Shown: positions 1,091-23,880 of the stretch, one piece after another
Numbering within the stretch: position 1 is the first letter of the stretch
Layout of the letters: each line of letters begins with the position of its first letter
Virus record (IMG/VR): IMGVR_UViG_3300010354_000549
Location: 1-26,160 of that record
Source of the DNA: a virus
DNA length: 26,160 nucleotides
Strand: one strand, 5' to 3'
Notes under the pieces: model-generated
The model's database searches: none
Told to the model about the DNA's origin: nothing
The model's input: only the letters and a program-made list of their open reading frames with translations
Translations under genes and position numbers: made by a program

Positions 1091-1101
1091 AACTTAATTT
1101 A

Positions 1102-3908: not shown

Positions 3909-6908
3909 TTATTGATTGATATTACCAGAGTTTAGAGTTTCAGAAGCAGTAGGAACAAGTACACCCCCATTCGTCCCAGTGGCCTCTAGTCTGCTAGCAG
4001 CGAAAGCACCGCTTTCATTCAAACCGGCCGAGTCATTGATTCTCACTCTGATTTCAGCAGATGGGGTTTGAGTCGAATACTTTTCTAAACGTTGGATGTT
4101 GCCATATATGCGTTTATTAAACTGCTCAACTAAGTACTCATTTAACTTATCGAAAAATGAGTCATTAGTAATGACACCCCCCTTAGATATTTGACTAAGT
4201 ACGTTCGACGGCAGAATTTTTAGCCAACTGGCTCGACTAACGGCACAGTTACAGTTAGTCGTAGTGGTACCTAATGCACTCATGTCTATCGAAGGACCCA
4301 GATTAACTAAAAGCTCAGCTGCCGTAGTAGGATTAACATCGATAGACACCTTAGACCCGATAGGACCCAAAGATGTATTAATGATTGGATCGTAAGATTG
4401 AAAGTCTTCTGCCTTCATGTTTAGAGGAAGTTCTTCTTGAACATCTCTATCGATATTTGTAGGAGTTAAATTCTCCAGTAGTCTAGCTTGATCACGATCT
4501 TCTGTATAGGATCCGGATTGGACATTGGTAACTGATACGTTATTAGAAAACTGAATAGTAGACTTATTCGTATTCTGTGAGTCTTTATCTATGGTAAAAT
4601 ATCCTGAACTCTCTACACGAACTCCTCTTCCATAACGGTAATGACCTATGACTTCAAATCCATATTCATCACTCACAGGTCTTATGAGATAGTTGTTTTT
4701 GTTGTCCCGCTTAATGACGAATAACTGATCTTGAACATACGTTATCCCTTTTCTATATAACGCAATCTCTTCATAAGCAGCCGTTAACCATTCATCGTTA
4801 ACAGGAGCTGAATCATTAACCGGATTACGTCGTAGACTCTTATCTCTACTATCCTTATATTTAATTATTTCTTTTAATTTTTCTGATATTCGTTCATTAA
4901 ATGTATTTAGCTGATTTGTAAGTGAATCGAATTCTTGCGCCGCTGAAGATTGACCTGAAACCTGATAACTAAGCCCAGGCACCAGTCTAATATCCTTTAT
5001 ACTATGAGTTAAATCCACAGCATAGTCATACACACCCGCACTATCAGCATGAATGCCAGTTCTACCATTGCGTAATCTTTCCGATATTCCATTACGCAAA
5101 GCGCCATCAAAAAGCTGCTGAGTTTTAGTGTCATTAGCCGATTGTGGCTGAATCCCCGTACCTGATATTTCTCCTCCTTTTCTTGCAATAGTATTTTGTA
5201 TTTCTGTGTTACATCCAGCACTATTATCAAATATTTTGAAATTAGGTGGTTCTTTGTATAATAAAACCACTTCTTCTGTACCCTTTAGTCTACCATCAGA
5301 TCTTCTTGGCTTTACAAGTTGCTCGGTAGTACCAGATGAATCCCAAGAAGCTTTATATATCTGCTTTTCTTCTTCATCGGTAAAGGTCAGATCACCAACA
5401 CCGGTCGGAGCCACAAAACGTGATCTTTTTGCTATGAGTGTTAAATTCGTCGTAGCGGTGCTACCCACTGAATAGGAATGACTAATACCTGACACATAAT
5501 AATAACTATCGTATTTTGGGATGTATACGGGAAATCCCATTCGAAGTTCTGGACGCATTGGCAAACTCATATTCCCATAAGTAGCTCTTGCGTTTATTTT
5601 GTCCATATGGTCCATAATGTGGTAGTATAGAGCTTTCGCATCACCAGCCCATTCAACGTTATACTCTTGCCTCCGCATGCCATAACGCTTAGCCAAGTGA
5701 TAATCGACCACAGCAGCACGATTAGTCATGAAGTCATTAGAGATACCGTAGTTAATATTCCCCGATAAAGCGGCACCACTGGCTGTTACCATAGTTACAA
5801 TTTCAGCTTCATCTATAGTGAAATCCTCCGATATGATTTCGAAATCCTGAATCCAACTATTAGGCTTATTAACTATCGTGGGAAGGTTATAGAATGGAGG
5901 TTTAAATACTATGCTTCCAGTCGTATCACAATAAAATTCATATCCCAATTGATCACGAACGTGTTTAGCTATTGTAAGTTTCGACTGCTGATTCGTATTA
6001 AATAACTCTAAGGAAAGACTGGCTAACGGGTATTTAAAGGCTACGATGTCCTCCGGACGAGTTCTTAAAAATGATGGCTGAGCTGGATCAGCGTCATATG
6101 CTTTTTCTTTTTCTAGAATTTCTGAGGCTATAGATGTGATGGTCTGTCCCTCTTTGATAGAGAAATTCGAGTATATTTGACCTGATGCCCCATAGATATA
6201 AAAATTGTTAAATATCCTAGTAAATCTTCTTGCCCAATAAGCCGTAATTTGGTCTCTGACAGCTATAAACCTTCCTCTATCCGGTCCGGATAGCGCGGCG
6301 TCATATGAAAACAGCGATGCTTCAGGGATCAAAAAGGTACCCATAGCGTCCTGAGCTAGGGATAACATCACCGTAAATGGATTGGAACCTGCATATCTAT
6401 TTTGAGTTAACAGAGTCGGTGCAGCCCCAGGGGTCGCCTGAGCCAACAAAGCTGTAGATAAATTTGTGTAGGTTATGTCCCACCAATAAAGTATATCCTT
6501 GCAGTTTATGGATATGCGAGTCGCTCCGTTACTCCAACTTTGGCTTATTTGGGTTATCATCCCCCAAAATATACGGTAATACTGAGGGACACCGCCAACG
6601 AGATAATAACCTTTCGCGTAAATTTCCACTTCCATCATCGGAACCATGATGAAAGCCCCGTCTTGAAAGAATTGAACTCTATCCGTATCAGGAATTACCA
6701 TTTGAAAGCTGGCATTCCCAGGAGGACTGTCAATATTAGAATTAGTAGTTACTGAAGTAATGTAATCGTTGAAGTCTACCTTTTGATTACAAACGGGACA
6801 GAGCTCAACTTCTGTATCCCCCATCAGTTTAATATAAACATCTGGGGCCAATGTTACGTATTTTCTACCAGTAGTGCTTGTATTTCCCCATGCCGAGTTA
6901 CGACTCAT
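3909..6908 (-). CDS. Baseplate hub protein, gp27/gpD-like
   Basis: The 999-residue product is most likely the hub that joins the tail tube to the spike. The first 500 residues resemble the gp27/late-control-D fold in arrangement: an early beta domain, a segment near residues 112-140 ending in ISINCKDILYWW, and later a YNVEWAGDAKALYYHIM stretch followed by a 'PVYIPKYDSYYYVSGISHSYS' type barrel strand. Two cysteine pairs stand out: CPVC at 37-40 and CNC at 886-888. The C-terminal half is long and charged with predicted helices (about 640-720), far beyond a typical hub length of 350-450 residues. ATG overlaps the upstream stop (ATGA), with AGGAG seven bases upstream at 6916-6920, the best ribosome site in this part. 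The spike gene follows directly. Confidence 0.75.
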   Translation of the reverse strand: MSRNSAWGNTSTTGRKYVTLAPDVYIKLMGDTEVELCPVCNQKVDFNDYITSVTTNSNIDSPPGNASFQMVIPDTDRVQFFQDGAFIMVPMMEVEIYAKGYYLVGGVPQYYRIFWGMITQISQSWSNGATRISINCKDILYWWDITYTNLSTALLAQATPGAAPTLLTQNRYAGSNPFTVMLSLAQDAMGTFLIPEASLFSYDAALSGPDRGRFIAVRDQITAYWARRFTRIFNNFYIYGASGQIYSNFSIKEGQTITSIASEILEKEKAYDADPAQPSFLRTRPEDIVAFKYPLASLSLELFNTNQQSKLTIAKHVRDQLGYEFYCDTTGSIVFKPPFYNLPTIVNKPNSWIQDFEIISEDFTIDEAEIVTMVTASGAALSGNINYGISNDFMTNRAAVVDYHLAKRYGMRRQEYNVEWAGDAKALYYHIMDHMDKINARATYGNMSLPMRPELRMGFPVYIPKYDSYYYVSGISHSYSVGSTATTNLTLIAKRSRFVAPTGVGDLTFTDEEEKQIYKASWDSSGTTEQLVKPRRSDGRLKGTEEVVLLYKEPPNFKIFDNSAGCNTEIQNTIARKGGEISGTGIQPQSANDTKTQQLFDGALRNGISERLRNGRTGIHADSAGVYDYAVDLTHSIKDIRLVPGLSYQVSGQSSAAQEFDSLTNQLNTFNERISEKLKEIIKYKDSRDKSLRRNPVNDSAPVNDEWLTAAYEEIALYRKGITYVQDQLFVIKRDNKNNYLIRPVSDEYGFEVIGHYRYGRGVRVESSGYFTIDKDSQNTNKSTIQFSNNVSVTNVQSGSYTEDRDQARLLENLTPTNIDRDVQEELPLNMKAEDFQSYDPIINTSLGPIGSKVSIDVNPTTAAELLVNLGPSIDMSALGTTTTNCNCAVSRASWLKILPSNVLSQISKGGVITNDSFFDKLNEYLVEQFNKRIYGNIQRLEKYSTQTPSAEIRVRINDSAGLNESGAFAASRLEATGTNGGVLVPTASETLNSGNINQ

Positions 6909-7639
6909 GATTCTACTCCTAAAGTTAACATTTGTCTAACGTTGTATGTATAACTGTATTCTAAATTAAACGGTTTTGAAGCATCGTCTCTAATCGATAA
7001 ACTGTCGAAACTGCCAATGTAGAATCGTTTATCATAATAGATGTATAGAGACCCCGACCGCATTACTACTCCTTCAGCACTGTGGTCATCATCCATTACA
7101 CAGCCATTATTTTTAAAAATCGATATCAATGACATCAAATTTGAGTATGAATGGGTGCTTACTCGAAATTCATGGGATAGACCGCCACCCCGATTGATGC
7201 CCGGAGTTAGTATAAAAGCAGAAGTGCTACCAGTGGCATTTAATTTCATGGGCTGTTCGAGCCACATTGAAGTTATTACCGATTTTCTCCCCATCGCATA
7301 GTCTAAAGTAGGAGAATAACTGAACGTAAGGGATTTCGGATTCACCATCATCGCTAAACCAGGGGTGTCCTGCATTAGCTTTATCTGGCGCTGCATCCGG
7401 TCATGGTATTCTTTTTGTCTCTTTAGTCTGTCTGCATTAGAAGCACCTTTTATAATAGAAGTAGATTGCTGATAAGGAGGTAAATAAGGCGGAATGAATC
7501 CCAGCACTAAAGGCTGGAATTGGTATAAGTATGGAGACTTCGTGGGGACCGGTGATGAAACCGCTGAGAAATGGGTGTGAACAGCAGTCCCCATTTCAGA
7601 TATATGATTAAGTATATCATACAAATACCCGTTATTCAC
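6905..7639 (-). CDS. Baseplate protein, paralogue of its upstream neighbour
   Basis: This 244-residue protein starts with GTG at 7639 in a GTGA overlap with the previous stop, with AGGTG a few bases upstream. Residues about 75-240 align by eye with the preceding 206-residue product: an early 'NPKSLTFSYSPT' strand, a middle Gly/Ser/Thr segment ending in a bulky Phe-Ile, then 'FKNNG' followed by an acidic turn, then a YYDK...YIGSFDS strand pair and a closing PFNLEYSYTYNV strand. The first 75 residues are an extra Pro-rich extension. Position between tape measure and hub, and the fold outline, resemble the small tube-baseplate connectors of contractile tails (the LysM-associated gp53/XkdP-type proteins). 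That family link is an inference. It ends in an ATGA overlap with the hub gene. Confidence 0.7.
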   Translation of the reverse strand: MNNGYLYDILNHISEMGTAVHTHFSAVSSPVPTKSPYLYQFQPLVLGFIPPYLPPYQQSTSIIKGASNADRLKRQKEYHDRMQRQIKLMQDTPGLAMMVNPKSLTFSYSPTLDYAMGRKSVITSMWLEQPMKLNATGSTSAFILTPGINRGGGLSHEFRVSTHSYSNLMSLISIFKNNGCVMDDDHSAEGVVMRSGSLYIYYDKRFYIGSFDSLSIRDDASKPFNLEYSYTYNVRQMLTLGVES

Positions 7640-8256
7640 GTGGCACCTGTTACACCCGGCTGAGCTAAATTATGCGGGAACCTATAAGTACAAGATTCAA
7701 CCTTAAATGACCAACTTAGCTCGAACATAAACGGTGAATCTGCACTTTCGCTTACTTCGAACCTTGCGAAGTGTCCAATGAATATACCCCGATCATAGGC
7801 CATGATAACTCTTCCTCTAAGAGCAGGCCTGCCGTCAGAATCTAGTATCATCCCGTTATTTCTAAATAACTCTAAGAAATCCTGGTATAACTCATATGCC
7901 ACAGTCTCGCGTCTGTTCCCAAAACGATTACCGGGATCACCAGTTAGTCCTAAATCCGGGCCTATGAAGCCTCCTGTACTACCACTACATGTAATTGTAG
8001 TTAGCTCGTCCGGCCAAACAAACTCCACGAAACCGCCATAAGTAGGTACTATATTTTTAGTCTTATTCATCGATTCTTCGACTGAATTAGGCGGAGTATA
8101 TAAAGCAAGACTCACAGGATACATACTAACTGAAAGATTCGTAGGACTACTTATAGAAAAAACGAATAAACGACCGCCCCGAAATGTAGGTAAGTCATAA
8201 TAAGCCGTCGATGCAGACGGAAATTTGGGGTAAGGGACGGTCTTAGGCTTTGCCAT
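7636..8256 (-). CDS. Baseplate protein, first of a paralogous pair
   Basis: The 206-residue product starts with ATG sharing one base with the tape measure stop (TGATG). It contains the same block order as the next gene: N-terminal strand near 'VSLALYTPPNSVEES', a W-containing strand followed by TTITCSGSTGGFI, 'FRNNG' with an acidic turn, a MAYDRGIFIGHF strand pair and a closing 'PFMFELSWSFKV'. The two genes look like an old tandem duplication that has diverged widely. Because it lies directly after the tape measure and before the hub, a role as a baseplate or tube-initiator component is likely. I cannot assign a named family with certainty. Confidence 0.7.
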   Translation of the reverse strand: MAKPKTVPYPKFPSASTAYYDLPTFRGGRLFVFSISSPTNLSVSMYPVSLALYTPPNSVEESMNKTKNIVPTYGGFVEFVWPDELTTITCSGSTGGFIGPDLGLTGDPGNRFGNRRETVAYELYQDFLELFRNNGMILDSDGRPALRGRVIMAYDRGIFIGHFARFEVSESADSPFMFELSWSFKVESCTYRFPHNLAQPGVTGAT

Positions 8257-11200
8257 CAGCCAGCTTCGCCTCTTCTCGCGTCACCATAAAATTTGGGAAA
8301 TACTTTAGCCACCGCTTCTGCTATCTCTTGCGGATCAGCATCTGTTCTTACGTTGACTGAAACACTAATACTTCCGGCAGCACCGGGTAATGCTGACAAT
8401 GGGCGACCACTATGGAATTCTTTGTAAAAACTTCTAATAGCCTTTTCGTACACTTTAGGATCCCCAGTAAAATAGCCTCCTCTTCGGAGAGCATCTACGA
8501 ATCCCTCTGGATTACCGGCTTTGGCAGCTTCTAAGGCACCTGGCCATTGTTTTGTTAATCGATTAACATAATCCTGAGCTCCTGCTAACGGCGTATCAAA
8601 AGCTCTAAAACGATCTCTAATCGTATGCTTCGAGGCACCATAACCCTCATCTGTACGCAGTACAGTAGTTTGACCAGTATACCCCTTTCCAGGTTTTACT
8701 CCTCCGAAATTATAATTATACATGTCTACTCCCTTACGGGTCTCATGGGCCCAGTGAGCTAATAACATATCAACCAGCGGAGAGTTCGCCCCAGGTCCTA
8801 CGCCCAGAGCTCCTTCTATCGCTGTTTTGGCTTCACCAGGCTTCATCTGTGTAGTTTTAGCGGGGACGTCTGTAGGCATAGCCGGAGTTTTGGGAGGAGT
8901 GGTACCTTTGATTTGTATAGGACCGGTAGACATAACACCACTTCGCATTTGCGTTAGTTTTAATGCAGATAACATGGCCATATACATAGGTTTGTTTAAT
9001 TCTAGTAAATCTCTTAAATCAGCCAGGTAAGGGGTAACGTCCTCACCAGTATCCTTCTTCATCTTCTCAAACGTCTGCTTTACGCGATCGGCCTGGTCAC
9101 CATGACCCATATTTATAAGTTTCTGCTCCATATCAGGAACAAACTTAGCGAATGCATTCTTAAAATCCTGGAGTGATATTTGAGAAGCATCTACTCCCAT
9201 CGTATTTAAACTAGATTTTGAAATGGGAGCCCCACCCTCCATGATCAGCGCCGGTAACTTGCGGTTGAAATCGGCAAATTCAGTAGATCTACGACCTAGA
9301 TCTCCGCCATATTCAGTGAAAGTCTTAACCGAATTGGCCAATGCCATGCGGAGTTTTTCATCATCGTCCTCAAATCCGAATAGCTTACGGACCGCTGATC
9401 GCAGGTATTCATAGATAGAATTTATACTATTTAACAATTTCTCCAACATAGAACGTAAATAACCTTGGAGGTAATCTCCTATACTTTGCGTTTCACTGAT
9501 ATGCGTCTTAGTCAGTCCCTCAAGCGTAGGCAAATCAGTAGGCGCTCCTTGGGGGGCCTTTAATAATGCATCCGTAATTACACTTTCTAATGCTCCTCGA
9601 CTTCTTTCGTCTTTTTCTAATTGTTTAACTAATTTCTTTACCTCCTCCGGAGTTGCTTTCATATTTGGGTTGAGTTGCTTTAACGCTGCGAAGACCGATT
9701 CCTGTACCTCAGAGTCTTTGTCTGTAAGTTTACCATTCAGTTTCAAAGCCTCTATAACGGAGCTTACTCTAATATTAAACTCGTTGACGGCAGAAAAAAC
9801 CTCTTTAGGGATTTCAGGGAAGACTGCCTGCCTTCTCAAAGCCCCGGTACCCACCATAGACGTTCCGCCAAATTTCTTGGACAACTCGTTTAAAATCATG
9901 AGTTGAGTTCTGATATTGGGTAGTTCTTGGGTTAAGAAGGACGCTATATCAGGCATCGCCGCACTGCGTTTTGCAGTCTCATCCATACCGGATTTCATAG
10001 TTTTATTTATATTTTGCATAGCTTCAGCAGTCATAGCGAAAGTCTTAACGGTATCTATTTCCGCGGGAGATTTACCCTTTGCTAACATGTCGGCTACTAT
10101 CCGACCCAAAATCTGTTTAATGTTGGGAGATGTAGCTAATGCCTTTATTCCTTCCCCAAATTGATCTACCATATCTTGTAGTCGTCGATCGAATATCTTT
10201 GATATGATGTCTATATCCATTGGCTTTGAAACATCTGTTGGTGATAAAGTAAGCTTCGCCGCTAAAGGAAGGGCTTCTTGTACGCTCCCAAAGCTCAAAG
10301 ACTTGCCCGCCAAAGATTGCATGGCCTCTTGAAACCGTTTTGGGTCCATAGTACGACTCAACGCCTTAAACAGGCCTAAGGTTTCACCCAAACGGTTATT
10401 ATAAGTTCCAATGTTAGGAAGTACATCCTTGAATACGCTAAAAAACTTAGAAGTTTGTATACCACCACGAATGGCCACATCAACAAGGCCATTCATGGCG
10501 TCAGTCACAGAGTTGGTCGACATGGCGAGTTGATATTTAAAATGATTCTGAAGTTCAGTTATATCCCCAATAGTAGTACCCAATCCTTTACTATAGGTCT
10601 GCAAAGAAGTAACAAGCTTCACTACAACCTGATCCACATTCGGTTTGTTTAGTATATCCGTAGCACCCTGAATGAATGAGTTATACATGCTACTTATGTG
10701 CATGTTCATAGCATCCATGGCTTCTTCGGATGTCATACCAAGCTTTAGCCATTCAGTATTATTATCTATCATAGCCCCACGTAAGGATTTTAACGTGGAT
10801 ACATAAGAACGAGATACATTCCCTTGGGCAGCTACTAGATCGCCCGCTAAAGGTATACCTTTTGTCATAGCCAGATTGAATTTAGCAGTCTGCTCGCTGG
10901 CCATCATTATCAATTTGGCCAGCATCATTATTCCGCCAGCTGCAATACTAAGCGTAGAGTTTACTTCTGCAAAACTCCTAGATACTTCTACTAAGGATCT
11001 CGTCAGTTCTTTATGTCTACTACTCCCTTCTTCGTGCTGAGCCATTTCGGCTCTAATGCCAGCCATTTTACCTAGGGCCTCTTGAGCTCTTTTCTTTAAG
11101 AACTTGTCCGAAATTTCCTTAGACATTTTGGAACCGAAATTACGGAACTGACCTGCGAAGAGATCTTCTAGTCCATCAGCCGTCGCCTTAAAACTTTTGG

Positions 11201-11705
11201 TTACTTCATCTATATCATGAGCAGCCAAGTGTTCAATGCGATCTTGAAGCTGCTTCGTAATAGATACTTGTTCCTCGAGCTGTTTTATAATCAACGCCCG
11301 CGCTCGATTTTCTTGAACATAACCTTGATATGTGGTTACTACTTCTTTCTCTAAATCTTTTAAAGCTTCTGACGCCGCTTTCTCATCCTCTGTGGTGGTG
11401 GCTTTTAATAATTTGTCCTGGGCTTCCTCTACTTGTTTGTATAATTCCCCCATCTTTTTGTCATATTCTTGAAATTTTTTCTTAGTATCCTCCATAGATC
11501 CTTTGACCTGTTTGGAGTATACTTCCATAGCAGCGACATATGTTTTAACGTCCGCTGTGGATTTATTAATCATTTGAGCCGTTTCTCTAACGACTCTTGT
11601 CGAAGCGTTCGCCTGTTTCTGTATATGACGAGTTAGACTACTAACTTGCTGGGTTATAGCATTAGTAACCTTAGGGCTTATACCTTGAGGAGCTCCGATC
11701 GGCAT
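8256..11705 (-). CDS. Tape measure protein with C-terminal glucosaminidase domain
   Basis: This 1149-residue protein is the tail-length ruler, threaded inside the tube and probably released into the envelope. Residues 10-250 are Lys/Glu/Gln-rich coiled coil. A hydrophobic segment at about 253-270 (with IAAGGIMMLAKLIMM) could cross or insert in a membrane. The middle is mostly helical. Residues about 955-1098 look like a muramidase/glucosaminidase of the FlgJ C-terminal (GH73) type, with the candidate catalytic Glu988 in AHWAHETRKG and a YNYNFGGVK motif at 996-1004. A short beta tail (1113-1149) ends the protein. The start overlaps the upstream gene by 35 bases and has only a weak AG-rich ribosome site. 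It is followed by the baseplate genes, as expected for a tape measure. Confidence 0.9.
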   Translation of the reverse strand: MPIGAPQGISPKVTNAITQQVSSLTRHIQKQANASTRVVRETAQMINKSTADVKTYVAAMEVYSKQVKGSMEDTKKKFQEYDKKMGELYKQVEEAQDKLLKATTTEDEKAASEALKDLEKEVVTTYQGYVQENRARALIIKQLEEQVSITKQLQDRIEHLAAHDIDEVTKSFKATADGLEDLFAGQFRNFGSKMSKEISDKFLKKRAQEALGKMAGIRAEMAQHEEGSSRHKELTRSLVEVSRSFAEVNSTLSIAAGGIMMLAKLIMMASEQTAKFNLAMTKGIPLAGDLVAAQGNVSRSYVSTLKSLRGAMIDNNTEWLKLGMTSEEAMDAMNMHISSMYNSFIQGATDILNKPNVDQVVVKLVTSLQTYSKGLGTTIGDITELQNHFKYQLAMSTNSVTDAMNGLVDVAIRGGIQTSKFFSVFKDVLPNIGTYNNRLGETLGLFKALSRTMDPKRFQEAMQSLAGKSLSFGSVQEALPLAAKLTLSPTDVSKPMDIDIISKIFDRRLQDMVDQFGEGIKALATSPNIKQILGRIVADMLAKGKSPAEIDTVKTFAMTAEAMQNINKTMKSGMDETAKRSAAMPDIASFLTQELPNIRTQLMILNELSKKFGGTSMVGTGALRRQAVFPEIPKEVFSAVNEFNIRVSSVIEALKLNGKLTDKDSEVQESVFAALKQLNPNMKATPEEVKKLVKQLEKDERSRGALESVITDALLKAPQGAPTDLPTLEGLTKTHISETQSIGDYLQGYLRSMLEKLLNSINSIYEYLRSAVRKLFGFEDDDEKLRMALANSVKTFTEYGGDLGRRSTEFADFNRKLPALIMEGGAPISKSSLNTMGVDASQISLQDFKNAFAKFVPDMEQKLINMGHGDQADRVKQTFEKMKKDTGEDVTPYLADLRDLLELNKPMYMAMLSALKLTQMRSGVMSTGPIQIKGTTPPKTPAMPTDVPAKTTQMKPGEAKTAIEGALGVGPGANSPLVDMLLAHWAHETRKGVDMYNYNFGGVKPGKGYTGQTTVLRTDEGYGASKHTIRDRFRAFDTPLAGAQDYVNRLTKQWPGALEAAKAGNPEGFVDALRRGGYFTGDPKVYEKAIRSFYKEFHSGRPLSALPGAAGSISVSVNVRTDADPQEIAEAVAKVFPKFYGDARRGEAG
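8412..8843 (-). other. Peptidoglycan-hydrolase domain inside the tape measure gene
   Basis: This segment encodes residues about 955-1098 of the tape measure protein. The pattern of a helix with HETRKG, then YNYNFGG, a strand-rich TTVLRTDEG stretch, 'DRFRAFDTPLAGAQDYV' and 'YFTGDPKVYEKAI' follows the layout of endo-beta-N-acetylglucosaminidase domains of FlgJ type. It would cut peptidoglycan locally during DNA delivery. Glu988 is the likely acid residue. The assignment rests on motif recognition only. Confidence 0.8.
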
Positions 11706-12795
11706 CTTCTAACCCATTTTCTTCTAAATCGGTACGTAGTTTACTTAGACGCTGAATTAAATTTCCATCAGTAACAGGGCCCAAAGATTTAGAACCCTCT
11801 GGGATTAAACTACTCAAAGAACGAACACTCGCGGTTCTAGAAGCAGCTAGATCCCTCGCTTTCTGTTCTTCTTGCATCTTCCTTGAATATTCTTCTATAA
11901 TCTTATCGTGCTCGTCCATCTCACCGGACAACGCTATAGATAACTCTTTAGCCAGTTCCTGGGCAGTATCAGATTTCAAATGGCGGACCACACGAGCTCT
12001 TCGCCCATCAGATAAAGTTATGATTTTGTCGGCATCTTTAGTAGACGTGGTATCTTTATTGTTTAAATAAGCATAAATGGCCGCGCTCTTAAGTTCTTCA
12101 AGTTCACGTTTTTCATTCGCTATACGGGTCTTGTCTTGTTCATGGACCCGATTCATTTCTTTGCCCACAAAGGCTCCTGCTATAAACTTAGAATTTACCC
12201 AGTCTTGTTCAGCTTGATCTTTACGATCCAGGACATGGGAAACCGATAAAAAAGTCCTTTGAGCAGTGTTTAACCCCAACTTTTCAGTACCAGGAATTCC
12301 CGTATACTTAACTTCATTTATGCTTCCCATTCTCAATGAATACCACTTTATCCGGGTTTTACTCTCTTGAGCGTAGAATTCCACCAAAGGATATAACCTA
12401 ACTGCCTTGTTATTTAACTTCGACAGTTCTTTGACCATCAATGACTTCTCTGCCGAAGTGAACTTAGATACTACCTTTACAATTCTGTTTATAGATTCGG
12501 GTCTCTTATCAATAAGATTCTCCCCATTTATCATGAATATAGAATATGCAATAAAATAATCTTCATATAAATATTTATTTTTTAGACCTATGGGTCCGGG
12601 TACACGCATATAGTCTATGAGTGTCATCTCGGACCCGTTAATTGTTTTGAATACAAAATGGAACCCCTTCACATTCGCATGTGAAGTCAGGAATCCATTA
12701 TATAATAATTTTTCTAACTCCGAATATACCTCATAACCAAATGGATCCTGATAATTTACAGGAATTTCTATATTTATTTTATCTGAATCGGTCAT
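11671..12795 (-). CDS. Unknown protein in the tail-assembly-chaperone position (second gene)
   Basis: The 374-residue product begins with an acidic/beta part (residues 1-60), continues through a Lys/Tyr-rich middle, and ends in a long charged helix (about 215-320), which could form a coiled coil, before a Ser/Leu-rich tail. The ATG at 12795 overlaps the previous gene by 17 bases in another frame, and its own end overlaps the tape measure start by 35 bases. Many phages place one or two tail assembly chaperones between tube and tape measure; these bind the tape measure before tube polymerisation. I assign the role by position only. No domain is recognised. Confidence 0.65.
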   Translation of the reverse strand: MTDSDKINIEIPVNYQDPFGYEVYSELEKLLYNGFLTSHANVKGFHFVFKTINGSEMTLIDYMRVPGPIGLKNKYLYEDYFIAYSIFMINGENLIDKRPESINRIVKVVSKFTSAEKSLMVKELSKLNNKAVRLYPLVEFYAQESKTRIKWYSLRMGSINEVKYTGIPGTEKLGLNTAQRTFLSVSHVLDRKDQAEQDWVNSKFIAGAFVGKEMNRVHEQDKTRIANEKRELEELKSAAIYAYLNNKDTTSTKDADKIITLSDGRRARVVRHLKSDTAQELAKELSIALSGEMDEHDKIIEEYSRKMQEEQKARDLAASRTASVRSLSSLIPEGSKSLGPVTDGNLIQRLSKLRTDLEENGLEDADRSSSRYKP

Positions 12796-13390
12796 TTATC
12801 ACCATCTTTGGCTCTTCTTTTACCCCAGAAGAAGACTCAAGAGGTGAGTCAGTACTCAAGCCTGGTTCAACCCCGGAAGCTTTTTCCTGAGGTAAAGAAG
12901 CCGCTTTCTCAGCCATCGATTGTTTTAGCTTACTTACTTTTTCTTCCGCTTCCGTAAGTTCCTCTTGAACAGAGTTCATGGATTCGAATTTAACATTTGC
13001 TAGATTTTGACGCTGGAATTCATCCATCAAATCCGCATAAACGGTGAATATATCATCCACATATTGACCACCCCAATCACCGAGTTTATGATATAAATAC
13101 CTGTCAAATGTGGTCTTAGTGTTGTTTAGACCTGGAAAAACAGCGCCCCTCTTTAAATATCCGGAAAAATCTTTGTCTTCGATTCCCACTATTGCAAAGC
13201 TTAAGGTAAGACGTTTGGAATCGCTTAATCCAGATATGCCGTTACCACTGGTAAGTACCTCAGTAACCTTCTCTTGGGCCACGAATGAAATAGGGGAGAG
13301 CCAAATCAAACGCTCCCCGATCTTTCTTTTCCACACCACATTAGACCCGACAGAATCTAACAGCGATTCGAGTTCTTCCAGATTATCCAT
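12779..13390 (-). CDS. Probable tail assembly chaperone (first gene)
   Basis: This 203-residue protein lies just after the tube gene and its hairpin. Residues 1-125 are a compact mixed helix/strand domain containing WKRKIGERLIWLSPISF and a 'LSFAIVGIEDKDFSGYL' segment, a pattern reminiscent of phage tail chaperones that carry the sentence 'lsfsi..idg.d'. Residues 128-165 form a charged helix, and the C-terminal 40 residues are a disordered Pro/Ser/Glu-rich tail. The start ATG has only a weak GA-rich ribosome site. The next gene overlaps in the +1 frame, and I see no slippery heptamer, so re-initiation is more likely than frameshifting. The chaperone role is inferred from position and general composition. 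Confidence 0.65.
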   Translation of the reverse strand: MDNLEELESLLDSVGSNVVWKRKIGERLIWLSPISFVAQEKVTEVLTSGNGISGLSDSKRLTLSFAIVGIEDKDFSGYLKRGAVFPGLNNTKTTFDRYLYHKLGDWGGQYVDDIFTVYADLMDEFQRQNLANVKFESMNSVQEELTEAEEKVSKLKQSMAEKAASLPQEKASGVEPGLSTDSPLESSSGVKEEPKMVINDRFR

Positions 13391-13404
13391 ACCATCACAA
13401 TACT

Positions 13405-13440
13405 ATTTGGCGGCGTGAACCCCAGTCCACGCCGCCAAAT
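13405..13440 (-). terminator. Strong 13-bp hairpin between tube gene and chaperone gene
   Basis: A perfect inverted repeat, ATTTGGCGGCGTG at 13405-13417 and its complement at 13428-13440, encloses a 10-base loop. It lies in the 70-base gap between the tube stop (13461) and the next start (13390). On the transcribed strand the stem is followed by AGTATTGTGATGG, with no uridine run, so it does not look like a standard intrinsic terminator. It may instead act as a partial terminator or protect the 3' end of an abundant tube message, allowing more tube than tape measure to be made. Confidence 0.6.
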
Positions 13441-13460
13441 GATCGAGTCTTTACGATATC

Positions 13461-14108
13461 TTAGGCAGACTTATAAATCTGTGACCCGGGGTTACCGAAA
13501 TCAGTTATGTAGCTATACTTGTCAGTCGCCACGGTCCAAACGTTCTGTCCGTTAGTTATATCGGTAGAACGAGCACTGCAATTTTCCATGACGATGGCTG
13601 AGTCCGAAGTGAAACTCACGTCGTAAGATTCTAACCAACACCCTAGGAAGTAGGTAACTATTACATCATTACCGGTTACTGCACTATTTAAAGTATCAGG
13701 ACTTATACCAGCACTATTACGTGACAAGTCTGAAACGATTAACTCATTTTGTATATCGAACGGCCAACGATGGTGTCGCAGTGAACGCATGAGACCTTGT
13801 CTGTCTGCGCTCTTGTAACCTAACATTCTAAATATGTTACTCGTATAAAGTAAAGCGCGGTTAATGGTTAAACTAGCTGCATCGGTTACACCAGGCACCA
13901 ACTCAGCGATTTTATCGCCATACCCAATACCACGCACTGGGTCTACTGCACGGTTTTCCGAATAACTAAACGTGTTTATAACACCCACCTGGGCCAACTG
14001 AGTCCCATCAGGTCGTGTCATAACACGATTTTTCTGAGAGATAGCCACCGCAGTCTCTGGTGAGACATTGGTACGTAGTAAATGAGGGTTCTCTAGAACT
14101 GTTGCCAT
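13461..14108 (-). CDS. Tail tube protein
   Basis: The 215-residue product has the size and features of a contractile-tail tube subunit: an extended N-terminus, strand-rich core with a 'GDKIAELVPGVTDAASLTINRALLY' type stretch (about 65-90), a HHRWPFDIQNELIV segment in the middle, and a C-terminal run of strands (LESYDVSFTSDSAIVMENC). Hexameric rings of this protein would form the inner conduit surrounded by sheath. ATG at 14108 has a good ribosome site, AGAAGG at 14114-14119, five bases upstream, fitting strong expression. It precedes chaperone and tape measure genes, the usual order. The sheath gene, however, is not adjacent but lies three genes upstream. Identity rests on size, context and fold pattern, not on a diagnostic motif. 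Confidence 0.75.
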   Translation of the reverse strand: MATVLENPHLLRTNVSPETAVAISQKNRVMTRPDGTQLAQVGVINTFSYSENRAVDPVRGIGYGDKIAELVPGVTDAASLTINRALLYTSNIFRMLGYKSADRQGLMRSLRHHRWPFDIQNELIVSDLSRNSAGISPDTLNSAVTGNDVIVTYFLGCWLESYDVSFTSDSAIVMENCSARSTDITNGQNVWTVATDKYSYITDFGNPGSQIYKSA

Positions 14109-15101: not shown

Positions 15102-16505
15102 TTAACAACCACTCATATTTAAGTTATCCATGACCTGTTGGCAAGCATCACGAAGATCATTGATGCTAAAAATATCACATTGACTATTTTGAGTTCGATC
15201 AATTGCGTTCAGGAAACAGACCTTGGCTATTTCATTCAAATAAGCCCCAGTCATACCTTCAGTCATATCTAGAACATTATCAAAATCATCTCTACTTATG
15301 GATTTATCCGGTTTGAGACCGTACCTCAATAACTGATTCGAAAGTATACTAGTTCTTTCGAGTTTGGTAGGGTGCGGTAGTTTGATTTTCACGTCAAAAC
15401 GCCCGGGCCTATTCGTCAATGCCTTGTCCATGGAATCGTGGTCATTTGTACTAGCCATCACCACAATTCCAGGATTTTCGTGCAATCCATCTAAACAATT
15501 CAGAAATTCGTTTAGTATGTAACCATTAGCGGTGAGACTCTCTCGATCCTTACCAAATAAATCCATGTCCTCCACGAAAAGCACACATGGAGCAAGCGCT
15601 CTGGCACAAGTGAACAAATCAGTCACATCTTGTCCGGATCGTATAGATTTTCCGGTACACCAAATTCTAGTGGCCATCCCATCTAATTGATTGGATAGAG
15701 CTTTGAATATAGTAGACTTAGCCATACCCGGTGGGGAAACCAGAAGCAAATTCCGATTAGGTAAAAACCCACGGCTATATATTAACTCAGAATTCTTAAT
15801 TAAATTAAAAGAGTTTCTTAAGATAAGATTCTTGATATTTTCCGGTATGAATATTTGGTCCCAGGCGGTGGAACCGTGTTCAATAAAAGACAGCTTTCCG
15901 GAACCGAACATGACACAAGCTTTGTCATAGAAATTCTCGGTATTCTTAACCGACTCTATGTTTTGCTTCAGACACTTAGCTATATCGAAGTCCCCCTGGT
16001 TGGAGTTAACTGTAAAAGAGCATCCTATTTCATTATAACATAAATCATAAGTTACGAATGCTCGTTGACCAGAAGGTTTATGTATTACTAATACACAACC
16101 CTTTACCGGTATGAACTTAGTCGCATTTAGACCTATTTCTATATCCTCTTTGACACATTTAAATGGGTCATTCAACGCTAGTTCAATCCCGAACTGTGCT
16201 GAACACTCTTCCAGTTCACAACATTCGAGAGAACTAATCTCATTAGAGACACACTTGTGGAATGCATACGCCGTTAAATTACGATCTACACTTTCAAAGT
16301 TAAATGACTCCGTATTAACATCTGAGACTGAACACTTGAGCCAATCCCGCATAAGGATGCTTATAGCGTCCTTGGGGGGCGGAGTTTCAATGTGTGGCCC
16401 TTTAAATTTATCTATAGCATAATCAATTATAGCTTTAACTCGACGATCTACTTGATCTCTAAAATCACTATTCTTTATACTTTTATCAGAAAAATAATCA
16501 TCCAT
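15102..16505 (-). CDS. AAA+ ATPase (BCS1/Cdc48-like core) within the tail operon
   Basis: This 467-residue protein has an unrecognised, cysteine-rich N-terminal domain (1-215) and a classical AAA core. Visible motifs: Walker A SPPGMAKS (257-264), where the usual first Gly is Ser and the Gly before Lys is Ala; Walker B VLFVEDMD (308-315) with Glu-Asp in the order seen in BCS1-type proteins; sensor 1 Asn354; arginine fingers Arg366 and Arg369 in NRPGRFD; and a GMTGAYL helix (417-423) matching the sensor 2 region. It should be a hexameric remodeller or chaperone. Lying between sheath and tube genes, it may act in tail assembly, comparable to the AAA+ of extracellular contractile injection systems (Afp15/Pvc15). 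About 19 cysteines is high. The gene is clearly more AT-rich than the sheath gene and lacks a clear ribosome site. Confidence 0.9.
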   Translation of the reverse strand: MDDYFSDKSIKNSDFRDQVDRRVKAIIDYAIDKFKGPHIETPPPKDAISILMRDWLKCSVSDVNTESFNFESVDRNLTAYAFHKCVSNEISSLECCELEECSAQFGIELALNDPFKCVKEDIEIGLNATKFIPVKGCVLVIHKPSGQRAFVTYDLCYNEIGCSFTVNSNQGDFDIAKCLKQNIESVKNTENFYDKACVMFGSGKLSFIEHGSTAWDQIFIPENIKNLILRNSFNLIKNSELIYSRGFLPNRNLLLVSPPGMAKSTIFKALSNQLDGMATRIWCTGKSIRSGQDVTDLFTCARALAPCVLFVEDMDLFGKDRESLTANGYILNEFLNCLDGLHENPGIVVMASTNDHDSMDKALTNRPGRFDVKIKLPHPTKLERTSILSNQLLRYGLKPDKSISRDDFDNVLDMTEGMTGAYLNEIAKVCFLNAIDRTQNSQCDIFSINDLRDACQQVMDNLNMSGC

Positions 16506-16594: not shown

Positions 16595-19500
16595 TTAGAT
16601 ACGTACTCTGACTGAAAGAGAAACGGCTATGTACTCGAGAGGGAAAACCGGCACATAAACCGCATTTACACGCATGATAGTAGGATCGTCCGGATCAGTG
16701 GCAACTGATAGATCTCCAAGCTGTCCTACTATTTGGTCGCCAATCATTTGATTGAAGGCTGCTTGGGTAGTACCTCTGACCGAGGTGACAAGATCTGGAG
16801 TAAACTTAGAGCCAATGAACGGATCCAACGCAGATCTAAGGGTCTGTTGTACATACTGGATAGTGAGAACAACAGAAGGAGTACGAGTAATGACATTCTC
16901 TGGCTGAGTAGTCAAACCATGTCTTACTCGAATTCCGGACTCAACCCGCTCTAGCACCGTAACACCCGAAACTGCGACTTGGTTGGCCTCAGTAGGATCA
17001 AGATATCGACCGATATTGGTGAACCCAACAACGGCTCTCCGTGTCAACGGCGAGGCCACGTCGAAGGCGGGTGAACAGGTGGATGCTGCAAGAGCTACTG
17101 CCGCGTAGGTCCCATCCACCAAAGATTCAGTGGAAACTCCGAACTCGTTCACGGTGGTGATAGTGAACGCATCCGGATAAACCACCCAAACCAAATCAGA
17201 ATTGAAGCCTCTTGCTAACGACTGCACGCCAGTCGGTGTGGTTCCAACCGCAGTGCCGATGACAGCAACACGCTCTCCTTCTTGACGAGGAGTGCTCATG
17301 AAGATGACATGCTGAGCTAGGTAAGACAAAACCGTGGGCTCAGTAGTAAGGACCGAAATGGTAGCTGGCTTCACCGTGCCGACTGGCTTCTTAAGCTCAT
17401 CAATGGCCTCAATGTATGAGGTCACAGAAGCTTGTGAAGAACCGGTGCTTCTAAACACCTGGCGTAGGCCTACGGCAGGAGCTCCATTTAAGAAAGCTAG
17501 AGAAGCAGCTAAAGACAACGGGTTGTCAGTGTTCGCAGGTCCAAAGATCCGCGTTATAGACTTCATGTCTGTAAAGACTGCGGCTCCAGTAGGTGCACCT
17601 GTCTGAGCACTAGTATTCCCATAACGGGAATACTCGTAGGAAATGTAGTAAACATCTCCAACTGCAGGCTCCGATCCGGTTCTCTTGAATGTCCGGATAG
17701 TAGCTGTAGTGCCGGGCTGAGTGTTGTTGAGATTGGTAACCAGAACTTCGAGCCCTGGAATTCCCACGACAGCGTTCACTGAATCGGCTGTAAATATTGG
17801 GGACACGTTCATGGTGAAAGAACCACCACTAGTATAGTCCCCAGTATCGCTTTCTAACAGAGTGAAAGTGAGACCCGTCGTGGAGTCATTATAGGTACGG
17901 CCCGGAATTCCGGTACCCGAGGAGCCGAACGAGTTGTTCGATGAAACACTGAATCCACTTATCGCCGATTCTCCGGTATCTCCGGTGCTACCGATCACAA
18001 TGCCAAGGCCAGTATCTGCCAAGAACGAAGTGTTGGTGGTAGATGCGAAGGAAATGGAAGAGCCACCACCAGAACTCAAAGAAGTGATGGTGAGGTATGT
18101 ACCTAGACCACTAACAGCTACTGGTGCTACTCTAGCTGCCGAGCTAAATGAAGCATCGGCTGTGAGTGCACTTGTTAGCAGACTCGCCGTTGGTCGAGTG
18201 TAATAGGTTGTTCTATTACTTGTGAATCCGAGAGTATCAAGAGCAGTACTTGTACTCTTGATAGAGACTATCGAGCTCTGAGTGTTGAGACGGCTTCTAA
18301 GGATTAGTTTACCCGCATACTTACCTTGACCCTCAAACGCAATGAGGCCTGGGAAAGAAGTTGTGACTGTATTGGTTAGATCCTTCGTGCCGTGCACGTG
18401 GTAACTACCAACTATTCTCGTTTGGTGGGCGCTATATGCGGTCGATAGAGCGTTAGCCAAGGATATCGATGTAGCCAAATCAGAAGCATTGGCGGTGCTT
18501 ACTGCATTCGGATCGTTAACCGTATGCTTACCCGATGATACTATATGAAGATTGAACTTCGTCTTAATCTGATTTAAGAGCGTGTTCAATACAGCCTGAT
18601 CACCAGGGTTTAACGAGTCAGGATCAGCAGCGGTAACAGTATTGGCCGAATCTGATGCTAGGTGAGACGCCCCAAAGACAATGTGAGAGTTGAATTGAGT
18701 CTTTAGGTCAATCGCCAAGTCACATGCTGATGCATAGTCAGATGCTGCAGGAGATGTAATAAGATTAGACGTGTCATCATGTCCGTGCACTCCGATCTGA
18801 AGTAGATGGAGGTTAAAGTCCTTCTTTAACTCATAAGCCAGAGTAACCGCTGTCACCAAATTGGTAGCAGAAGCAGCTCCTGTAGAGTTGAAGGTGTCGT
18901 TTAACTGGTGAACTCCGCCTTCTACAAGGTGGGCATTGAAGTTCGTCTTAATATCATTCAGCAGCGTAAGAGCTGTTGCTAAGTTTGATGCGCTTGCAGT
19001 GCTGACAACATTAATGTTGTCAGCCCCATCGTGGAACGTGGTGGAGACACGGTGGGTATTGTAGTTGGCTTTTATGGAGTTAGCTATGTTTATGAGCTGC
19101 GTGGTATAAGTAGTGATATCTGACGCACTTGCGTAAGCCAAATACCCTTCGTTAATAGCAGCTACAACATCCGCTGTGGTGATTCCTGATCCAGCGGGCA
19201 ACGAAGTCGTGATTTCCGAACCATCGATATTTACGGTTAGTACGTCAGTGGATCCAGCCGTAATATCGAACGGACCGACCTTAGTACCGATTTGTTCTGC
19301 AGCCTTATTTAAGGCAGTGTAAGAACCTTCAAACGAGTTGGCATTCGATAGCCCAATGGTCGCTGCAGCATTAGTTGAACCTGTCAAAGACGGGGTTAAC
19401 ACCGCTAATGAGGCAGCATATCCATTAGAAATAGACGGAATGTTACGCCCTGATAACTGGAGACAGACTTGATCCCCATAAGTGACAACACTGGCTAAAT

Positions 19501-21676
19501 TGTTGGGGGCAGTGGAAGCAAAGGTTCCAGTTCCATCTTCATGGGCCTGGGTATCGGCGTCAACTGCATTATTTATAGCAGTCGCTACTCCCAACATGTC
19601 AAGCTGGGAACTAATATCGATATTATCGATGAGAACGCCATCGATCGACAGAGCAATACGATCCGTTAAATTGAAAGTGAACCCATCATCTACCGGGGAG
19701 CTCATGAACGCAGCAGGGAAGGCTACGGAAAGGTCCACGGTGTAAGGAGATCCATCTACTAACACTTCACCGAAGTTGCGTGTATAATCGAAGATCTCAT
19801 AAGGCTGAGAGCCACCCGAAGTGATGGTGGCATGGGTTGCCGGGGCCAAGTTACTGTTAAAAGTAACCGTAACCGTCTCAGCGACGGGAGTTCCCAAACC
19901 ACTATGGAAGGCTCTTGGATCAGTGGCTGAACCGGAAGGCCAGTTTAGCGTCTCCGTGAAACCAGTTATGGTTCCCATCGTCACGCCAAATATTGGACCA
20001 CCAGTAAGAGAACTGGTAATGGAGTAGGTGCCCGTGCCAGAAGGACCAGGTGTAACTACCGAAAAGGTGTAATTCGAATCAGCGATTCGGCTATACCAGA
20101 AATTTGCGAACACCTTATAATCGGCAGGTACAGGAGTTTTCAGAGTGATGTAATTAGTAGCCGAATCCACCGACATCACAGTAACTGGATTACGGCCCAC
20201 TGCGTCACGATAGTCTTTTCCGACATAGACTTCGATCAAATCTGGACGATCGGTGGGGAGATCAAGTCTATTATTAGAAGAAGACGCGTAAACTGAAGTT
20301 CCTAGCGGCGTGTCTCTGCCATTACCCGTAGTAGGCTTATAAGGCAGCTGGAAGATAGTGGAGCTAAGCATGGTCGGCGAATTCGCATCATAAGTGCGCT
20401 CGCACTCCGCTCCATAAATTTTATCATCTACAAGCATCGCCGAAATTTGCGATGAACCCAAATCCACATCACCAGTACGTAATCCTGGGGTTATAGTAAA
20501 AGAAGTTCCCCATTTAATAAACGATTGGGCTCCGGAGTTATCGATAGTGAAATCGACACCGCTACGATAGTCTGTACGGCTAGGCCCAATACCGCAACTC
20601 AGAATATTAGTGACGTTTGCATTGGGCAGATAGTCGAATGTATCCTGCCAAGTGTTGAAGAAGTAGCTAACAGTGACTGTACTATTTGCTACCGGCGCTG
20701 CGGGCAGCGTAACTTTACGATTTTTCCCATCGACTGACTGAGCGATTACAGTAATACCATTTACCGTAACCGTTACCTTAGTCGGGTCATTTGTAGTAAT
20801 TCCTCCTCCGGAGCCATCCACAATAGGTCCGTTGTAAACCGTGAAGGTTCTATTTCGGTTAGTAGAATCTCCTCGAGTAAACCCTAACTGACCATTCGCG
20901 GTTCCGGATCCGACTGTAAGATTACCCGCAGCCGAAAGCATTACATGATTATATCCCTGGTTATCAATAACCACTGAGGCAGTTAAACCACTGACCAAAG
21001 CCGCGTTAATATCATTTACAATATCAGCTGCATATCGGGTTCCAACACTTAAACTAATGACCGAAGGCGTATAACTATCATTTACATAAACTTCAAAAAC
21101 GTTATTAGAGGCCGTAAACACGTATGTTTCAGGCCGCTGGCTTATTAGCGTACCTACTCCAGAGCTAACCTGAGCACTAACATCATCCGTAGCACGAGTG
21201 TCGCTACGATGATAATAATAAGTAACATATACAATGTCGCTTGGTGCCGGAATGGTCAGTAACGAAACAACACCAGTGGCTCCATTTACTGATGCCACAG
21301 GAACTGGTAAACCATTCACCGTCACAGAGACTGATGAAGATGAATAGGTAACTCGGCCGACGCCGGTGCCATCAACGATAGGGTAGTTTCTTACGCGGAA
21401 AGATGTTAAAGAGCCATTCTGACCACCCAAAGTGGGGTTAGTTACCGTACCCCCGGTGACCCAACGACCTGTCGCGTCTTCATTAAAAACACGCGTATCT
21501 GCTTGGCTACTGGACCCCCTTACGAGTTCCACATTCAGGTTATTTAGATATTCACGAGACGGCCCGATGATGAACGGGATTCGAGCTCCGGCTACTGAAG
21601 GTACGGATACAACCTCAGTAGATGTCTGGGTGTAAACGCCAGGGGGAGCATATGTGGAAAACGGTCCGATAGCCAT
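16595..21676 (-). CDS. Giant tail sheath protein
   Basis: The contractile sheath subunit. Residues 1-45 hold the typical sheath start (YAPPGVYTQT, then ARIPFIIGPS). The C-terminal 320 residues hold the conserved sheath core: 'GPANTDNPLSLAASLAFLNGAP' (about 1379-1400), AALAASTC-type segment near 1525-1534, RRAVVGFTNIGRYLDPTEAN (1546-1565), and the final LEYIAVSLSVRVRI strand. Common sheaths have about 400-700 residues; this one has 1693. The extra mass consists of repeated beta modules (about 95-160, 279-346, 477-538), three copies of another beta domain (187-270, 674-777, 802-848 with 1107-1156) and six His-containing repeats (855-1104). ATG has GGAG five bases upstream (21682-21685). The gene is GC-rich compared with neighbours, fitting high expression. 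It ends before a strong hairpin and has its own leader. Confidence 0.93.
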   Translation of the reverse strand: MAIGPFSTYAPPGVYTQTSTEVVSVPSVAGARIPFIIGPSREYLNNLNVELVRGSSSQADTRVFNEDATGRWVTGGTVTNPTLGGQNGSLTSFRVRNYPIVDGTGVGRVTYSSSSVSVTVNGLPVPVASVNGATGVVSLLTIPAPSDIVYVTYYYHRSDTRATDDVSAQVSSGVGTLISQRPETYVFTASNNVFEVYVNDSYTPSVISLSVGTRYAADIVNDINAALVSGLTASVVIDNQGYNHVMLSAAGNLTVGSGTANGQLGFTRGDSTNRNRTFTVYNGPIVDGSGGGITTNDPTKVTVTVNGITVIAQSVDGKNRKVTLPAAPVANSTVTVSYFFNTWQDTFDYLPNANVTNILSCGIGPSRTDYRSGVDFTIDNSGAQSFIKWGTSFTITPGLRTGDVDLGSSQISAMLVDDKIYGAECERTYDANSPTMLSSTIFQLPYKPTTGNGRDTPLGTSVYASSSNNRLDLPTDRPDLIEVYVGKDYRDAVGRNPVTVMSVDSATNYITLKTPVPADYKVFANFWYSRIADSNYTFSVVTPGPSGTGTYSITSSLTGGPIFGVTMGTITGFTETLNWPSGSATDPRAFHSGLGTPVAETVTVTFNSNLAPATHATITSGGSQPYEIFDYTRNFGEVLVDGSPYTVDLSVAFPAAFMSSPVDDGFTFNLTDRIALSIDGVLIDNIDISSQLDMLGVATAINNAVDADTQAHEDGTGTFASTAPNNLASVVTYGDQVCLQLSGRNIPSISNGYAASLAVLTPSLTGSTNAAATIGLSNANSFEGSYTALNKAAEQIGTKVGPFDITAGSTDVLTVNIDGSEITTSLPAGSGITTADVVAAINEGYLAYASASDITTYTTQLINIANSIKANYNTHRVSTTFHDGADNINVVSTASASNLATALTLLNDIKTNFNAHLVEGGVHQLNDTFNSTGAASATNLVTAVTLAYELKKDFNLHLLQIGVHGHDDTSNLITSPAASDYASACDLAIDLKTQFNSHIVFGASHLASDSANTVTAADPDSLNPGDQAVLNTLLNQIKTKFNLHIVSSGKHTVNDPNAVSTANASDLATSISLANALSTAYSAHQTRIVGSYHVHGTKDLTNTVTTSFPGLIAFEGQGKYAGKLILRSRLNTQSSIVSIKSTSTALDTLGFTSNRTTYYTRPTASLLTSALTADASFSSAARVAPVAVSGLGTYLTITSLSSGGGSSISFASTTNTSFLADTGLGIVIGSTGDTGESAISGFSVSSNNSFGSSGTGIPGRTYNDSTTGLTFTLLESDTGDYTSGGSFTMNVSPIFTADSVNAVVGIPGLEVLVTNLNNTQPGTTATIRTFKRTGSEPAVGDVYYISYEYSRYGNTSAQTGAPTGAAVFTDMKSITRIFGPANTDNPLSLAASLAFLNGAPAVGLRQVFRSTGSSQASVTSYIEAIDELKKPVGTVKPATISVLTTEPTVLSYLAQHVIFMSTPRQEGERVAVIGTAVGTTPTGVQSLARGFNSDLVWVVYPDAFTITTVNEFGVSTESLVDGTYAAVALAASTCSPAFDVASPLTRRAVVGFTNIGRYLDPTEANQVAVSGVTVLERVESGIRVRHGLTTQPENVITRTPSVVLTIQYVQQTLRSALDPFIGSKFTPDLVTSVRGTTQAAFNQMIGDQIVGQLGDLSVATDPDDPTIMRVNAVYVPVFPLEYIAVSLSVRVRI
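18365..19114 (-). repeat. Six tandem His-containing repeats of about 41 residues in the sheath
   Basis: Residues about 855-1104 of the sheath hold six units with period 41, 41, 41, 46 and 40 residues. Each has a helix of type 'DLATALTLANxLKT' then [FY]-x-x-H. Five units show the exact pattern [FY]-N-x-H-x6-H-x3-D: His875/His882/Asp886, His916/His923/Asp927, His957/His964/Asp968, His998/His1005/Asp1009 and His1044/His1051/Asp1055. The sixth is degenerate (His1084, then His1095/Asp1099). After the Asp comes an Asn/Thr/Val-rich link (TNTVT type). The spacing is kept while much other sequence varies, as expected for a structural or metal-binding role. Confidence 0.9.
20639..20842 (-). repeat. Second copy of a duplicated beta module in the sheath
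   Basis: Residues about 279-346 repeat the module seen at 95-160 (DNA 21197-21394). Shared blocks are PIVDG[ST]G, a VTVNG strand, a [SN]V[DN]G turn followed by a V-x-L strand, a Pro-rich link, and a closing V-x-V-[ST]Y strand ending at an Asp-Thr. A more distant third copy is at residues 477-538 (20063-20248). The copies are divergent in DNA, so the duplication is old. Confidence 0.8.
21197..21394 (-). repeat. First copy of a duplicated beta module in the sheath
   Basis: Residues about 95-160: PIVDGTGVG, then SVTVNGLPV, SVNGATGVVSL and VYVTYYY. It is the partner of the copy at residues 279-346. The module lies right after the conserved sheath N-terminus, so it most likely projects from the outer surface of the contractile sheath, as the insertion domains of other sheaths do. 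Confidence 0.8.
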
Positions 21677-23415: not shown

Positions 23416-23880
23416 CTATTTAAAGTATAACTTCACATTTTCATGAACCATATTTGAACTAAGAATCTCACTCACCTCCATCCAACAATAACTACTATGT
23501 TGATCCATAGGCAGATTCTTAACTACGACTTCATGTGGGAGCTGGAACTTGTGGGCAATTACTATATAATGAGTACCGAATTCTTTATTTAAGAAATTGT
23601 CCTCATAAATGTGCTCGTAAATCCCATGATACGTCGATTTACGATCAACATCATACTTAAATCCAAGTTCATCCTGTATACATCTCGAGAACCCGTTATC
23701 CAAAGTCTCATTTTTTCGAATAGCTGACCCAAGAGTAAACCATATATCTTTAGCAGGGCTATTTCTTCGATAGCCTAATAAATACCTTCCATTCTCATCA
23801 TGGACTAAGATATCGAAGGATATGAGTACGGCATTCCTTACTACTTCAATCCACTCAGATTCAGGTAACTTTTTCGTCAT
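23416..23880 (-). CDS. Nudix hydrolase, GDP-mannose mannosyl hydrolase type
   Basis: The 154-residue product resembles GDP-mannose mannosyl hydrolase (Gmm/NudD), which splits GDP-mannose or GDP-glucose to GDP and sugar. Family residues that I can match: Asp23 (SFDILV), Arg38 (GYRRNSPAKDIWF), the single acidic Mg ligand Glu71 in a shortened Nudix box, the YHGIYEHIYEDNF and THYIVIAHKF blocks, and Gln127-His128 where the family keeps its Gln Mg ligand and general base His. In the Nudix box, however, the second Gly of the usual GG is Ser52. Length is normal. ATG overlaps the previous stop (ATGA). An enzyme acting on a surface-sugar precursor inside a tail operon is unusual; it may alter host nucleotide-sugar pools. 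Confidence 0.85.
   Translation of the reverse strand: MTKKLPESEWIEVVRNAVLISFDILVHDENGRYLLGYRRNSPAKDIWFTLGSAIRKNETLDNGFSRCIQDELGFKYDVDRKSTYHGIYEHIYEDNFLNKEFGTHYIVIAHKFQLPHEVVVKNLPMDQHSSYCWMEVSEILSSNMVHENVKLYFK

Follow-up and report, generated by a model that had tools for sequence, protein, structure and literature searches.

Sheath, tube and capsid proteins of phages can carry Ig-like or other accessory domains, for which a contribution to adhesion or stability has been proposed. Extra sheath domains are generally located away from the tube, and cementing roles have been proposed for such accessory regions (PMC9230969). The sheath of Pseudomonas phage E217 has a domain A that is absent from the smaller pyocin sheath (PMC10329688). 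In the needle tip of a contractile phage, histidines surround a density that was read as a metal ion (PMC11948020). The DNA analysed here (the window) is a virus record of 26,160 bases, probably a fragment, and encodes a tail sheath that carries six tandem units with two His and one Asp each. No RNA genes were found within its 26,160 nt. The carrier gene and the six units are as follows.

16595 to 21676, minus strand: tail sheath protein of 1693 aa, carrier of the array, assigned by PHROG 2839 and by tblastn to annotated sheaths
18983 to 19105, minus strand: unit 1, residues 858-898, with H875, H882 and D886
18860 to 18982, minus strand: unit 2, residues 899-939, with H916, H923 and D927
18737 to 18859, minus strand: unit 3, residues 940-980, with H957, H964 and D968
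18599 to 18736, minus strand: unit 4, residues 981-1026, with H998, H1005 and D1009 and a link that is 5 residues longer
18479 to 18598, minus strand: unit 5, residues 1027-1066, with H1044, H1051 and D1055
18338 to 18478, minus strand: unit 6, variant with a 4-residue insertion, residues 1067-1113, with H1084, H1095 and D1099 and an extra H1093

The original prediction had placed the repeat in a tail sheath, and this assignment was confirmed by PHROG 2839 (tail sheath), which matched the C-terminal sheath core (residues 1314-1691) with an E-value of 9.8e-27. The conserved core was also aligned to the annotated sheaths of Tunturiibacter phage Tunturi_5 and phage G, and the N-terminal part (residues 9-626) showed 42% identity to the sheath of LR745208, an uncultured 485-kb phage. 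Pfam Phage_sheath_1C scored 19.6 bits, under its curated cut-off of 26.9, which was taken as a limit of sensitivity because PHROG 2839 matches the same protein. Right after the sheath gene, a 467-aa ATPase/clamp-loader-like protein is encoded (15102-16505, minus strand; phrog_3757, E 8.3e-19; phrog_10401 ATPase, E 2.6e-11), which is unusual for a tail gene block. A MutT/NUDIX-like gene (23416-23880, minus strand; phrog_1198, E 1.5e-6) lies among the structural genes.

The strict motif [FY]N.H.{6}H.{3}D was found at residues 872, 913, 954, 995 and 1041 (window 19063-18512), resulting in periods of 41, 41, 41 and 46 residues; the earlier reading of five exact units out of six, with periods of 41-46, is thereby verified. 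The sixth unit (residues 1081-1099) reads YSAH-QTRIVGSYHV-HGTKD, i.e. H-x10-H-x3-D with a 4-residue insertion, and its HVHGT-D ending was also found in other sheaths. Both His and the Asp are kept in 6/6 units of the window. The array had been located at 18365-19114; its existence was upheld but the low end had to be corrected, as the units (residues ~858-1113) correspond to 18338-19105. Residues 875-1095 contain 14 of the 21 His of the 1693-aa protein. When the protein was shuffled 20,000 times, the motif was obtained once in one shuffle and five times in none, and it was absent in its strict form from the other open reading frames of the window.

Relatives were collected with a two-unit DNA pattern, which yielded 42 stretches from IMG/VR, in most of which the units are spaced by exactly 41 residues. 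From these stretches a profile was made that recognised arrays in ~35, and further scans added more. The unit consists of 41 residues: a helix ending in H18, then a loop with H25-x3-D29. Because the DNA patterns demand His and Asp, two controls of conservation were run. In the first, the motif columns of the profile were masked and only units that were less than 70% identical to one another and to all seeds were retained. Among the resulting 153 independent units, H18 was present in 153/153, H25 in 152/153 and D29 in 146/153, and no other position scored in all 153 units was as constant as these three. In the second, a scan that used only peptides of the helix, such as NELKADYN, gave 26 further units, with H18 in 26/26 and H25 in register in 23/26, while in the remaining 3 H25 was shifted by small insertions, as judged by eye; distant arrays without any His could escape both controls. 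The His, His and Asp were thus the most conserved even in homologues found while ignoring them, and the expectation that homologous repeats would keep these residues was borne out. In both controls the candidate ligands were conserved when unselected, as in a metal-binding repeat. The Asn of the motif as first defined was dropped. It occurred at +1 after the aromatic residue in 43% and 61% of unselected units (N16 in 93/153, 61%, of the masked-profile units), so that the claim that it belongs to the conserved motif was abandoned.

Near-invariance of this kind would fit any strict structural role, and other polar residues (N9, K12 and N32) are also well conserved. Both points agree with a metal-free network, in which a helix cap and His-Asp hydrogen bonds hold the loop on the helix, the array still being a surface decoration. 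We consider such a network rather unlikely: the two His and the Asp beat every core hydrophobic position in constancy, which is typical of ligands, and in hydrogen-bonding pairs Asn, Gln or Glu is usually accepted, whereas D29 was replaced by Asn only rarely. From the conservation pattern, it seems fairly probable that the His-His-Asp sites bind metal, most likely zinc.

The repeat was found in eleven sheath loci besides the window, with L161, L162 and L170 identified by eye, and in unrelated virion proteins. Carriers included major tail proteins (phrog_9522, E 2.5e-25 and 6.6e-21), a tail-tube protein (Phage_tube_2, E 5.1e-21), a baseplate wedge protein (phrog_6, E 3.7e-50) and head-closure or internal-virion-like proteins (phrog_511 and phrog_8040). 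Other carriers were ~178-aa proteins, free-standing arrays of 15 and 21 units and giant proteins of up to 2598 aa. The repeat, first described as one of the tail sheath, therefore has a wider range, and a sheath-specific device was rejected, since several carrier families are non-sheath. The same carriers bear on the reading that the array mainly stabilises the sheath, extended or contracted, through cross-links between adjacent subunits. The position of the array in an accessory sheath region would suit that role, but the many non-sheath carriers, together with related sheaths that lack the array and have other inserts instead, make it improbable.

In one sheath (L162, 1907-6970, plus strand), a three-unit array occurs twice, at equivalent loops of two successive beta-domains. 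Two proteins of ~110 aa (L178, 3902-4228, and L180, 3929-4264, both plus strand) have a single unit after a predicted long helix, and these might form the same domain as homotrimers.

Among 50,697 phage records, one contained the repeat, and this record came from a metagenome; no match was obtained in the plasmid search. On bacterial and archaeal genome contigs the two-unit pattern, which misses single units and other codon starts, gave 37 stretches, none of them an array by profile, and a cellular origin was rejected on this ground. Many contig matches (L061, L063, L068, L088, L090 and others) share one common spacing that is out of frame (158-base matches), so that some other conserved sequence appears to fit the pattern.

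The structure of the six-unit array was predicted by AlphaFold with a mean pLDDT of 90.4, resulting in six helices and almost no strand. H18 was placed near each helix end, and H25 and D29 in the loops. No fold relatives of the array were found in PDB or BFVD at E <1. Pfam, NCBIfam and PHROGs, scanned with the members, gave no repeat match at curated cut-offs, only scattered weak ones. The only strong Pfam match among members was E1_FCCH (E 1.3e-9), which belongs to a separate insert in the L028 sheath. A comparison of the array sequence with solved structures returned a designed binder (E 0.005) and chance matches, and a literature search for a described phage His repeat found nothing relevant. 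The statement that no named domain exists for the repeat held throughout: it is a real, broad and unnamed family that appears to lie outside the families tested.

His, His and Asp serve as metal ligands in many enzymes, and the repeat could accordingly be read as a catalytic site, e.g. of a metal hydrolase with surface polymers as substrate. This is very improbable: up to 21 copies occur in a row and in major structural proteins, the units are short and conserve no evident pocket residue apart from the triad, and no enzyme family or fold was matched.

Sheath arrays comprised 3 units (L029 and L037), 6 units (the window, L030, L032, L042 and L028) or 9 units (L023), the counts for L029 and L042 including a helix recognised by eye. 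In automatic counts, 63-68 of 88-91 non-redundant arrays were multiples of three when the threshold ranged from relaxed to 99%, and 56-57 of 88-89 when it was strictest. Many of the counted arrays are homologous three-unit arrays, so that binomial p-values for these counts come out too optimistic. For arrays of more than three units, the automatic count gave 13-14 multiples of three out of 28-30 (thresholds 1.9 to 7.8, best settings). Reading by eye restored missed helices in L021 (6 and 9 units), L042 (6), L058 (9), L112 (6) and L113 (6). Five-helix arrays in one giant-protein family (L049, L055, L057, L099 and L131) look like true exceptions. In the 21-unit array, units at lag 3 were 59% identical versus 42-43% at lags 1, 2, 4 and 5 (permutation p 0.0002). 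A repeat at lag 3 was also detected in two 15-unit arrays (p 0.002 and 0.032) and in the nine-unit sheath (p 0.041); in L021 and the six-unit arrays, that of the window included, this signal was not significant. The E1_FCCH-like insert of the L028 sheath (residues ~960-1040) is situated exactly between units 3 and 4.

Arrays occurred in two phases. Those of sheaths and giant proteins start with a helix and end with H25-x3-D29, and those of major tail proteins and others start with H25-x3-D29 and end with a helix carrying H18. A spare His was present at exactly one end in 65/79 arrays of 3n units, the remaining 14 including missed helices and chance His. With a spare His at one end only, an array has as many H18 as H25, and two phases with equal numbers are simply explained by a closed domain that can be cut at either place. 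The usual building block is probably three units and not one. The predominance of threes, the higher-order repeat and the end phases suggest that three helices close into one domain containing three His-His-Asp sites, and closed triplets are the likely arrangement. New here are the occurrence of the units mostly in threes, the three-unit higher-order repeat and the two array phases.

The array is inserted into a loop that belongs to an accessory domain of the sheath. The two halves of the hosting beta-domain, with approximate boundaries, are the following.

19106 to 19279, minus strand: N-terminal half of the beta-domain, residues ~800-857, VGPFDITAG...VVAAINEGYLAYASASD
18152 to 18337, minus strand: C-terminal half of the beta-domain, residues ~1114-1175, ...AGKLILRSRLNTQSSIVSI...LGF

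The N-terminal half is common to array-carrying sheaths, and the array sits between the VVAAINEGY helix and the AGKLILRSR strand. In the sheaths of LR745208 and Tunturi_5 both flanks were aligned and no array was present; in the small sheath of phage G, only the first ~115 and the last ~400 residues were aligned. Eleven IMG/VR relatives retrieved with the whole sheath as query (L006-L016, up to 2490 aa) have no such array and a middle of other sequence. As the middle differs or is missing among related sheaths, it represents a variable slot. The sheaths of L007-L010 (~2490 aa, reading frame near 5974-13467) hold a different tandem repeat, GDTxTI...LTASGxxTPGGLxF, in the same middle region. Upstream of the L007 sheath, a 712-aa reading frame (842-2977, plus strand) resembles an actin-like ATPase with an intein, by eye only.

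Structure prediction, which had been proposed for the array region, gave a confident fold for the array itself; for the hosting region (residues 600-1300) the model was moderate only, with a pLDDT of 67.6. With this model, the top Foldseek hit was the sheath of E217 (probability 1.00, E 6.6e-3); FliD, the flagellar cap protein, ranked third. Given the E217-like region and the location of extra sheath domains away from the tube, the array would face outward. Its position is accessory and probably outward, and the variable middle region and the resemblance to E217 support the initial suggestion of an outer decoration; a role in surface decoration is quite probable.

Taken as a whole, we hold with modest confidence that the arrays are metal-stapled three-unit surface modules. 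Each unit would form one helix of ~18-20 residues ending near the first His, followed by a loop with the second His and the Asp, and three units would close into a small three-helix domain with three such sites. The window sheath would then have two of these domains in tandem in the loop of its accessory domain. A divalent metal, probably zinc, may pin the long loop to the helix, so that a domain with a small core stays folded outside the cell. As an accessory module on the virion surface, the array would serve as decoration, either in contact with the host or other surfaces or in stabilisation of the virion. More tentatively, it may be an undescribed phage-specific domain in which three 41-residue units form a pseudo-threefold ring with three putative His-His-Asp metal sites, circular permutation being tolerated, and which uncultivated phages exchange as a surface module between their sheath, tube, baseplate and head proteins.

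The module had remained unannotated in several major virion proteins of uncultivated phages and occurs in hardly any phage record. Should it bind metal, it would be a compact metal-stapled domain that is used in up to 21 units in a row. It makes the role of extra domains in large phage sheaths directly testable, and the three-unit rule indicates which fragment to express.

Compared with known systems, phrog_6994, a head fiber protein of 67 aa, gave a weak match to the helix part in 5/12 arrays (best E 2.9e-4, about half of the profile), which is too low to be convincing and covers a short stretch only. The E217 sheath (PDB 8fvg) was the best fold match of the hosting region, over ~150 aligned columns only; it has 504 aa and the extra domain A, and the available part of its description mentions no such array (PMC10329688). 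The needle tip has one site in a trimeric tip, whereas the array has many putative sites in tandem, in side-wall and other proteins. Unlike Ig-like domains, the array consists of all-helical 41-residue repeats with an invariant His-His-Asp instead of a beta-sandwich, and no sequence or fold match links the two. Like Ig-like and other accessory phage domains, it is exchangeable, is located on surface-exposed virion proteins and is absent from relatives. The array would act in the manner of the exchangeable accessory domains that phage virions are known to carry.
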